Part shown: positions 15,865 to 29,295 of the stretch, in pieces
How the letters are laid out: every line of letters begins with the position of its first letter
How positions within the stretch are numbered: position 1 is the stretch's first letter
Assembly (NCBI GenBank): GCA_019112985.1
Contig: DXIG01000141.1
Location: forward strand, 1-33,032
Direction of reading: 5' to 3'
DNA from: Candidatus Butyricicoccus stercorigallinarum
GTDB lineage: Bacteria > Bacillota > Clostridia > Oscillospirales > Butyricicoccaceae
DNA: 33,032 nt
Notes under the pieces: generated by a model
The model's input: only the letters and a program-made list of their open reading frames with translations
Told to the model about the DNA's origin: nothing
The model's database searches: none
Program-made: the position numbers and the translations under genes

Positions 15865-15954
15865 TGGCGGAGAAAGAGGGATTTGAACCCTCGCGACACT
15901 TTCGCGCCCTACTCCCTTAGCAGGGGAGCCCCTTCACCACTTGGGTATTTCTCC
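15865..15954 (-). tRNA. tRNA-Ser (anticodon GCU)
   Basis: Reverse strand GGAGAAATACCCAAGTGGTGAAGGGGCTCCCCTGCTAAGGGAG...GGTTCAAATCCCTCTTTCTCCGCCA: acceptor stem, long variable arm, anticodon GCT, encoded CCA. Confidence 0.95.
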
Positions 15955-15983: not shown

Positions 15984-16072
15984 TGGCGGAGAGGGTGGGA
16001 TTCGAACCCACGCGCCCTTTCGGACAAACGGTTTTCAAGACCGCCTCGTTATGACCACTTCGATACCTCTCC
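15984..16072 (-). tRNA. tRNA-Ser (anticodon UGA)
   Basis: Reverse strand GGAGAGGTATCGAAGTGGTCATAACGAGGCGGTCTTGAAAACCG...GGTTCGAATCCCACCCTCTCCGCCA: anticodon TGA, long variable arm, encoded CCA. Confidence 0.95.
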
Positions 16073-16330: not shown

Positions 16331-17251
16331 ATGATCTACACTGTGACATTAAATCCTTGTCTGGACTATCTGGTCGCCGTCCCCGGATTTCAGTCAGGCC
16401 GTGTCAACCGCGCCCGGTATGAGCGCATCATCCCCGGCGGAAAAGGAATCAATGTCTCGTATGTTCTGCATATTCTCAAACAGGAAAGCCTTGCGCTCGG
16501 TCTGGTCGGCGGATTCACCGGCGCGGAGATTCAGCGCCTGATGGATCGCGACGGCATCCGTCACGATTTCGTCCAGCTGCAGCGCGGCAGCAGCCGCATC
16601 GACGTGCAGATGGTGGACGGCATCGAAAGCTCCATCAACGGCGTCGGCCCGGAGATCACGCCGGAGGACATCGTCGCGCTGTGCGGCAAGCTGCAGCGGC
16701 TTCAGGATGGCGACACGCTCGTGCTGTCCGGCTCCATCCCGCGCGGCGCGCGCGATACGGTCTACAGCGACATTCTCAGCACCGTCGCGGACAAGGACCT
16801 GTACGTGGTGGTGGACGCCAAGGGTCCCCTGCTGCTCAACACGTTCAAATACCGGCCGTTTCTCATCAAGCCCAACCGGCAGGAGCTGATCGACATCTTC
16901 TACCGCAATCCGGACAGCATCGACGACATCATCCACTACGCCCGCTCGATGCAGGGCATGGGCGCGCGCAACGTCCTCGTCTCGCTGGACGCGGAGGGCG
17001 CGGTGCTCGTCACCGAGAGCGGCGACGTCTACCGCCACAGCGCCATGGAGGGCACCATTCGCAACACGGTCGGCTGCGGCGACTCCATGCTCGCGGGCTT
17101 CCTCAGCGGCTATCAGCAGAACCACAACATGGTGGAGGCGTTCCAGCTCTCGCTGGCGGCGGCCTCGGCCAACGCCTTCCACGAGGGGCGCGGCACCTAT
17201 GAGGACATCATGGAGCTGTACCAGACGCTCCAACACGAAATTGAGGACTGA
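16331..17251 (+). CDS. fruK: PfkB-family hexose kinase, probable 1-phosphofructokinase
   Basis: MIYTVTLNPCLDYLVAVPGFQSGRVNRARYERIIPGGKGINVSYVL..., C-terminal NTVGCGDSMLAGFLSG; RBS CAGGAGG. Confidence 0.8.
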   Translation: MIYTVTLNPCLDYLVAVPGFQSGRVNRARYERIIPGGKGINVSYVLHILKQESLALGLVGGFTGAEIQRLMDRDGIRHDFVQLQRGSSRIDVQMVDGIESSINGVGPEITPEDIVALCGKLQRLQDGDTLVLSGSIPRGARDTVYSDILSTVADKDLYVVVDAKGPLLLNTFKYRPFLIKPNRQELIDIFYRNPDSIDDIIHYARSMQGMGARNVLVSLDAEGAVLVTESGDVYRHSAMEGTIRNTVGCGDSMLAGFLSGYQQNHNMVEAFQLSLAAASANAFHEGRGTYEDIMELYQTLQHEIED

Positions 17252-17311
17252 CGCTTCCCAAAACCGCAGGCGTTTTCTTTCCTGCACGACGCATTGCTGT
17301 TCGACAGTCTG
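17251..17311 (+). repeat. Dispersed intergenic repeat, copy 3 (internally deleted)
   Basis: 5' block ACGCTTCCCAAAACCGCAGGCGTTTT and 3' block TGCACGACGCATTGCTGTTCGACAGTCTG match the two ends of copy 1 without its interior. Confidence 0.65.
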
Positions 17312-17312
17312 G

Positions 17313-17345
17313 CCTCCCGCCGGTTTCCGGCGGGAGGTTTTTTTC
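17313..17345 (+). terminator. Rho-independent terminator after fruK
   Basis: CCTCCCGCCGG-TTT-CCGGCGGGAGG-TTTTTTT. Confidence 0.92.
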
Positions 17346-19868: not shown

Positions 19869-20084
19869 CATTCCAAAAAACGCAGGCGTTTTTTGGAGAA
19901 CAGGCAGCCCGCGGCAGCGCACGCGCACAGCGCGCACGTTTGCGGGCTGTGCGGTGTTTTTCCGACGCACCTGTCGCCGGAAAAACGATTTCACCTGCCG
20001 CCTGCGGGCGGAAAAATTCTGCCGAGCGCTGTTCACGCACGCAAGAAACTTTCTTGCATGACGCATCGCTTTTTCGACAGTCTG
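19869..20084 (+). repeat. Dispersed multi-hairpin intergenic repeat, copy 1 (full length)
   Basis: Shares ordered blocks with the reverse complement of 29070-29254: GCAGCCCGCGGCAGCGCACGCGCAC, GTTTGCGGGCTG, TTTTTCCGACGC.CCTGTCGCCGGAAAAA, TGCCGCCTGCGGGCGG, ATGACG.AT.GCTTTTTCG.CA.TCTG. Confidence 0.82.
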
Positions 20085-29023: not shown

Positions 29024-29043
29024 ATCATCACCAGAACAACGAA

Positions 29044-29069
29044 AGAGGACGCTCCGGCGTCCTCTTTTT
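29044..29069 (+). terminator. Rho-independent terminator after acidic lipoprotein gene
   Basis: AGAGGACGC-TCCG-GCGTCCTCT-TTTTC. Confidence 0.85.
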
Positions 29070-29254
29070 CAGATTGCCGAAAAAGCAATTCGTCATCGCT
29101 TTCAGCAGCGCGTTGCCGCCCGCAGGCGGCAGTCAAATTCGTTTTTTCCGGCGACAGGCGCGTCGGAAAAAACACCGCTCAGCCCGCAAACGTGCGCGTG
29201 CGCTGCCGCGGGCTGTCTGTTCTCAAAAAAACAGGCGTTTTTTGAAGCGTGTCG
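29070..29254 (-). repeat. Dispersed multi-hairpin intergenic repeat, copy 2 (opposite orientation to copy 1)
   Basis: Reverse complement matches 19869-20084 over ordered blocks (see findings). Confidence 0.82.
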
Positions 29255-29282
29255 AAAAAGCCGCCAAAAGGCGGCTTTTTTT
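29255..29282. terminator. Hairpin terminator, HxlR side
   Basis: AAAAAGCCGCC-AAAA-GGCGGCTTTTT, symmetric, functional on either strand. Confidence 0.75.
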
Positions 29283-29295
29283 CGTCTGCGCGATG

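Follow-up and report, generated by a model that had tools for sequence, protein, structure and literature searches.

A new IS1182-associated MITE family of Oscillospirales that duplicates the intrinsic terminators it enters

Results and Discussion

The dispersed intergenic repeat of Candidatus Butyricicoccus stercorigallinarum described here is a new family of MITEs that is associated with IS1182 and duplicates the terminators that it enters. We observed the ends of the element, its terminator target and the duplication of the whole hairpin, found the empty site in five relatives, and identified IS1182 elements that share both these ends and this duplication. Taken together, the reading of this family as a non-autonomous, IS1182-mobilised MITE, which inserts at terminators with duplication of the entire hairpin and whose interior is a maintained cargo, is in our judgement very probably correct.

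Copies in the analyzed window

The window (the whole stretch of DNA that was analyzed, 33,032 nucleotides of contig DXIG01000141.1) contains three copies, and the right end of each (3/3) adjoins a terminator hairpin. The features are as follows, R1 being a covariance model (CM) of hairpins 2 and 3.

17250-17311, plus strand: copy 3, a 62-bp internal-deletion derivative with part of hairpin 1 and the right end CTGTTCGACAGTCTG
17312-17344, plus strand: terminator GCCTCCCGCCGG-TTT-CCGGCGGGAGG with T7, adjoining copy 3
19873-20084, plus strand: copy 1, five hairpins and right end; CM R1 match at 19904-19987
19873-19896, plus strand: copy 1 hairpin 1, CCAAAAAACGC-AG-GCGTTTTTTGG
19905-19949, plus strand: copy 1 hairpin 2, CAGCCCGC...GCGGGCTG, with conserved CGCAC...CGCACGTTTGC inside; covariation
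19956-19986, plus strand: copy 1 hairpin 3, GTTTTTCCGACG-CACCTGT-CGCCGGAAAAAC, the strongest-covarying stem
19998-20011, plus strand: copy 1 hairpin 4, CCGCC-TGC-GGGCGG
20041-20057, plus strand: copy 1 hairpin 5, GCAAGAAA-C-TTTCTTGC
20069-20084, plus strand: copy 1 right terminal inverted repeat CTTTTTCGACAGTCTG, matching the IS1182 ends of locus L090
20085-20113, plus strand: intrinsic terminator CGCTCTCCTCGCAAGAGGAGAGCGATTTTT, adjoining the right end of copy 1; the right-hand copy of the target hairpin, still present
29042-29069, minus strand: terminator hairpin adjoining the right end of copy 2 (L081)
29070-29254, minus strand: copy 2 (L021), inverted, with a truncated left end and a deletion of about 10 nt in hairpin 2
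29070-29085, minus strand: copy 2 right terminal inverted repeat, which on this strand reads CTTTTTCGGCAATCTG
29255-29283, no strand assigned: the other terminator, AAAAAGCCGCC-AAAA-GGCGGCTTTTTTT, adjoining the truncated left end of copy 2

The genes around copy 1 encode RHH and HD-domain proteins, copy 2 lies beside a gene for an HxlR regulator, and a PfkB kinase gene precedes copy 3. Copy 1 (19873-20084) has lost its left terminal hairpin together with the left copy of the terminator. The R1 matches in the window are at 19904-19987 on the plus strand (E 2.5e-18) and at 29140-29216 on the minus strand (E 7.1e-17). The original prediction had placed all five palindromes of 19873-20057 correctly, and the same ordered blocks that it reported in inverted orientation at 29070-29254 are indeed found there on the minus strand, including the R1 match. 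The change in length of the third stem, from 5T/5A in copy 1 to 6T/6A in copy 2, was confirmed as well; across the family 6/6 is usual, with 5/5 in L001 and L006 and an imperfect 7/6 in L009. On the other hand, the AGCGCGCAC that had been taken for an extra segment of copy 1 is the normal state of the family, and it is copy 2 that has a deletion of about 10 nt (alignment row L021). Copy 3 at 17250-17311, the other copies in the genome, the terminators at the right ends and the terminator duplication that other copies show had been missed.

In copy 2 the left terminal hairpin is truncated, and the copy (29070-29283) is flanked by two differing terminators of convergent genes; identical pairs are found elsewhere. 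The window also holds tandem tRNA genes (Rfam RF00005) at 15868-15954 and 15987-16072 on the minus strand.

Ends, copy number and distribution of the element

Members of the family are about 200-256 bp long, with intact elements at 202-256 bp, contain no transposase gene and occur in many dispersed copies. Their ends have the form CAG-N2-TGTCGA...TCGACA-N2-CTG, with terminal inverted repeats CAGCGTGTCGA.../...TCGACAGACTG, in which the left end matches the inverted right end imperfectly. Three features expected of a MITE are found: a short, gene-less element in many copies, terminal inverted repeats, and a target duplication (TSD) with an empty site. As in MITEs generally (reviewed, for example, in PMC10969869), the element is short, non-coding and multicopy and shares its terminal repeats with autonomous insertion sequences; it differs from them in targeting a terminator hairpin with a whole-hairpin TSD, and in having an interior that is not derived from the partner IS and is conserved across families with covariation.

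The host genome (G000) is a 2.1-Mb draft in 145 contigs, and a 231-bp query found 33 places in it at E ≤ 1.6e-12, some of them perhaps fragments of a single copy; we estimate about 30 copies. The best other copies match the query at E 1e-60 to 1e-68, far above chance. A survey with R1 of 394 genomes of Oscillospirales detected the element in 48 of them, patchily distributed over 22 of 169 genera and at least six families, so the repeat is not genome-specific as had been supposed. Most of the named carriers are MAGs and isolates of Oscillospiraceae (Flavonifractor, Pseudoflavonifractor, Intestinimonas, Oscillibacter). The original prediction was to be given up if the genome held only the copies already seen, the stems did not covary and relatives had no copies; further genomic copies, covariation and copies in relatives were all found. 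Its description of the repeat as uncatalogued also holds in the sources searched: Rfam 15 at gathering scores returned two tRNAs and no family for the MITE over the whole window, a permissive threshold applied to six loci gave sub-threshold chance matches and nothing else, and no MITE publication naming Oscillospiraceae was found in the literature search.

A copy on contig JAEEYY010000124.1 (L221) belongs to a MAG labelled Synergistes, by horizontal transfer or through bin contamination.

Terminator targeting, hairpin duplication and the empty site

Many copies are bracketed by one and the same intrinsic-terminator hairpin on each side, with a T-tract after the right one only. In the host genome, 28 copies have flanks long enough for comparison, and 11 of these have a hairpin common to both sides, as against 0/756 mismatched left/right pairs; in the named genomes a matching flank pair accompanies 20 of 63 copies (mismatched pairs, 0/932), and over all loci 38 of 115 copies retain one. 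In 34 of these 38 duplications, what the two flanks share is a hairpin of 7 bp or more. TSD length ranges from 22 to 49 bp and rises with the span of the hairpin (r = 0.90, n = 34). On average, 4.2 of the 8 nt that follow the right hairpin copy are T, compared with 2.2 after the left. When right ends were sought by pattern in the host genome, all 14 genuine ones adjoined a hairpin; two further pattern matches (L085 and L086) were excluded, as they lie elsewhere and look like chance. No preferred orientation of the element with respect to the terminator emerged, because many targets are two-way terminators; they are T-rich on the right in 23 cases, A-rich on the left in 18 and both in 12. About two-thirds of the copies have no recognizable duplicate flank, the missing duplicates having been lost by decay, deletion or recombination.

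The clearest insertion is in genome G241, where a 256-bp element starting with CAG and ending with CTG stands between two copies of AAACGCCGGGGATACCCCGGCGTTT. When its two flanks are joined, they align continuously, at 81-94% identity, with sequences of five other species of the genus, and in these (G088, G417, G411, G116 and G169) the same locus has a single terminator and no element.

A hairpin appears to be the usual but perhaps not an obligatory target, since a few duplications (L123/L162/L239, L192, L194) are 24-34 bp non-hairpins at gene ends. These segments and that of L031, grouped with L123/L162/L239, are not strong hairpins, and some apparently lie at the 3' ends of coding genes; one such non-hairpin duplication is common to several Pseudoflavonifractor-like genomes. 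At two loci, L024 in the host genome and L090 in G048, the right hairpin copy appears inverted relative to the left (loop reverse-complemented, stem the same), as if the hairpin had flipped during or after insertion, while at most other loci the copies are in direct orientation. The right terminator of L012 (G000:C109:7828-8029) is nearly identical to the left terminator of L017 (G000:C49:6609-6741, at a contig end), which suggests either that MITE copies have recombined or that the assembly was misjoined within the repeat.

IS1182-family elements with the same ends

Seven IS1182-family elements of 1496-1583 bp, matching NF033551, were found in the order. They start with CAG(C/T)(C/T)TGTC(G/A)AAAAA and finish with ...ACA-N2-CTG, and the direct repeats on either side of each, 27-39 bp long, are exact and perfectly palindromic. 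An eighth, L090 in genome G048, shares these ends, and its hairpin repeat is near-exact. Scores against NF033551 were 385-405 bits (cut-off 270) for L089, L090, L255, L257, L261, L262, L264 and L265. For the IS loci we relied on exact repeats because a loose-window flank test had a background of 9/930 cross pairs. G048 holds both L090 and the MITE, whose right end GTTTTTCGACAGTCTG is there the exact reverse complement of the 16-nt IRL of L090, CAGACTGTCGAAAAAC; the right terminal repeat of copy 1 matches the same IRL, inverted, at 15 of 16 nt. Three IS1182 elements (L089, L090 and L101) have, inside the IS and beside the right inverted repeat, a near-perfect palindrome that recalls the left terminal hairpin of the MITE.

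On these sequence comparisons, IS1182-family elements are the likely source of the transposase for the MITE, mobilization in trans being suggested by the shared ends and target behavior. In the host assembly, a draft in which repeats collapse, we found no IS1182 transposase by NF033551 and no match to PF01609 (DDE_Tnp_1); the gene may have been lost, left unassembled or collapsed. The conserved core of the MITE was absent, by R1, from 14 of 14 IS loci tested, and mobility appears to be independent of the interior hairpins because the autonomous elements tested lack them.

Two other classes of element were weighed against the IS1182 assignment. An intergenic, palindromic and dispersed repeat could also be a REP/BIME that depends on a RAYT tyrosine transposase for its movement, or a relic of IS200/IS605 resembling the PATEs, and the original wording had been 'REP/MITE-like'. 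To our knowledge, REP/RAYT elements have no TSDs, so that the first half of that wording is wrong for an element with terminal inverted repeats and long target duplications; the second half stands on its inverted repeats, TSDs, empty sites and partner IS family. PATEs of Haloquadratum are likewise small mobile repeats tied to palindromes, but they derive from IS605-type elements and have neither inverted repeats nor target duplications (PMC3119063), both of which are present here. A REP or PATE identity is accordingly very improbable. Group IIC introns also insert at terminators, and a derivative of such an intron, or another terminator-homing retroelement, would have this placement in common with the present element. 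However, neither inverted terminal repeats nor duplication of the target characterizes group IIC introns, Rfam gave no hit for the element, whether to group II introns or to another family, and the IS1182 elements share exact ends with the MITE. The TSDs, the inverted repeats and the IS1182 match effectively rule out this origin, to which we give the least credence of all the readings considered.

Proposed insertion mechanism and relation to known IS1182 systems

The MITE is likely to be moved in trans by an IS1182-family DDE transposase. This enzyme would recognize the hairpin of an intrinsic terminator, whose palindromic sequence can be extruded as a cruciform, and the 3' ends of the element would be joined to the two 5' feet of the hairpin, these being the presumed strand-transfer positions. 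Gap repair would then copy the whole hairpin and give the order A-tract, hairpin, element, hairpin, T-tract. The left hairpin copy would thereby lose its T-tract and the right one keep it; the right copy should therefore still be a working terminator.

The closest known systems are IS1272, an IS1182-family element of Staphylococcus, and TnSha1, which share with the present one the IS1182 family, the targeting of stem-loops by structure rather than sequence and the use of many intrinsic terminators as targets (PMC5678879, PMC4923244). IS1272 replaces the hairpin, duplication having been drawn as a hypothetical pathway b (PMC5678879), and at terminators TnSha1 and IS1272 delete the hairpin without duplication (PMC4923244). 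In contrast, the present element duplicates the whole hairpin, as in pathway b, and is a MITE with its own conserved interior. Comparison with empty sites thus indicates that IS1182-type ends can probably duplicate an entire hairpin, the outcome proposed, yet unseen, for IS1272. The ISfinder description of the IS1182 family, as cited in PMC7335449, gives direct repeats of 2-60 bp. The partners reported here exceed the NF033551 cut-off and likewise have long, variable direct repeats; relative to that cited description, the difference is that here TSD length follows the length of the target hairpin. We found no explanation of the variable direct-repeat length of IS1182 in the literature searched; the 2-60 bp spread would be explained if each repeat is as long as the hairpin hit. 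Copying of the terminator would let the MITE enter beside genes with transcription termination kept, and may explain the roughly 30 copies in a genome of 2.1 Mb.

The conserved interior

The original prediction suggested that the fold is maintained, and two alignments bear this out. In an alignment of 110 sequences that was fitted to the structure, both sides have changed in 25 of 28 pairs, with 422 double-changed cells, where shuffles gave 110 and slid controls no more than 71; a smaller MAFFT alignment, not structure-fitted, agrees, with both-side changes in 18 of 30 pairs and 47 cells vs 6.7. Unpaired motifs (CGCAC, CACG-TTTGC and CATG in the loop of hairpin 3) are nearly invariant, in the linkers as well as in the loops. 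Nearly all changes of pairs go directly from one Watson-Crick pair to another. Exceptions to pairing are G-U in 23 and A-C in 19 cases (p = 0.64), the tRNA positive control, too small at 15 tRNAs, giving 5 G-U to 1 A-C. Some internal mismatches persist, namely A-C at columns 89/120 and TC/CT at 20-21/52-53; these plus-strand positions become G-U and tandem G-A if the minus strand is read, so that a minus-strand molecule is conceivable, the overall parity of G-U and A-C favoring neither strand.

Selection on DNA hairpins, palindrome correction and an RNA function are all possible causes of this pattern. We tentatively put forward, at somewhat less than even confidence, that the interior functions as a folded nucleic acid, either RNA or single-stranded or cruciform DNA, under selection across at least six families. 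If so, it might, for example, improve the copying or survival of the element or act on host transcripts and, the terminator being regenerated at each insertion, the element would amount to a 3'-end module that spreads itself and does next to no harm. The conserved interior raises the question of what a mini-transposon can carry. The more specific proposal of a structured RNA under selection, as a 3'UTR element or small RNA to whose function mobility is secondary, would account for the strong covariation (18/30 pairs; 25/28 pairs, 422 cells vs 110), for the near-invariance of the unpaired motifs and for the spread over at least six families, and placement at gene 3' ends would cause the interior to be transcribed. 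An RNA role is nevertheless not indicated by the exceptions to pairing, because G-U and A-C are equally frequent (23 vs 19, p = 0.64) where a selected RNA strand should favor G-U; the direct passage between Watson-Crick pairs and the lack of an Rfam match point the same way, and we regard this proposal as rather unlikely.

The near absence of wobble intermediates and of strand asymmetry is what would be expected if the stems were kept by a mutational process, the templated correction of imperfect palindromes, rather than by selection, and the paired changes of arm length (5/5, 6/6) fit the copying of one arm from the other. Such a process leaves the conservation of loops and linkers across families unexplained, and the conserved mismatches (A-C 89/120; TC/CT 20-21/52-53) persist in spite of it; as the cause of the matching stems it seems to us doubtful.

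A divergent version of the element occurs at five loci of genome G042 (L034, L038, L041, L044 and L047), where hairpins 3 and 4 are kept and other large hairpins replace hairpins 1 and 2.
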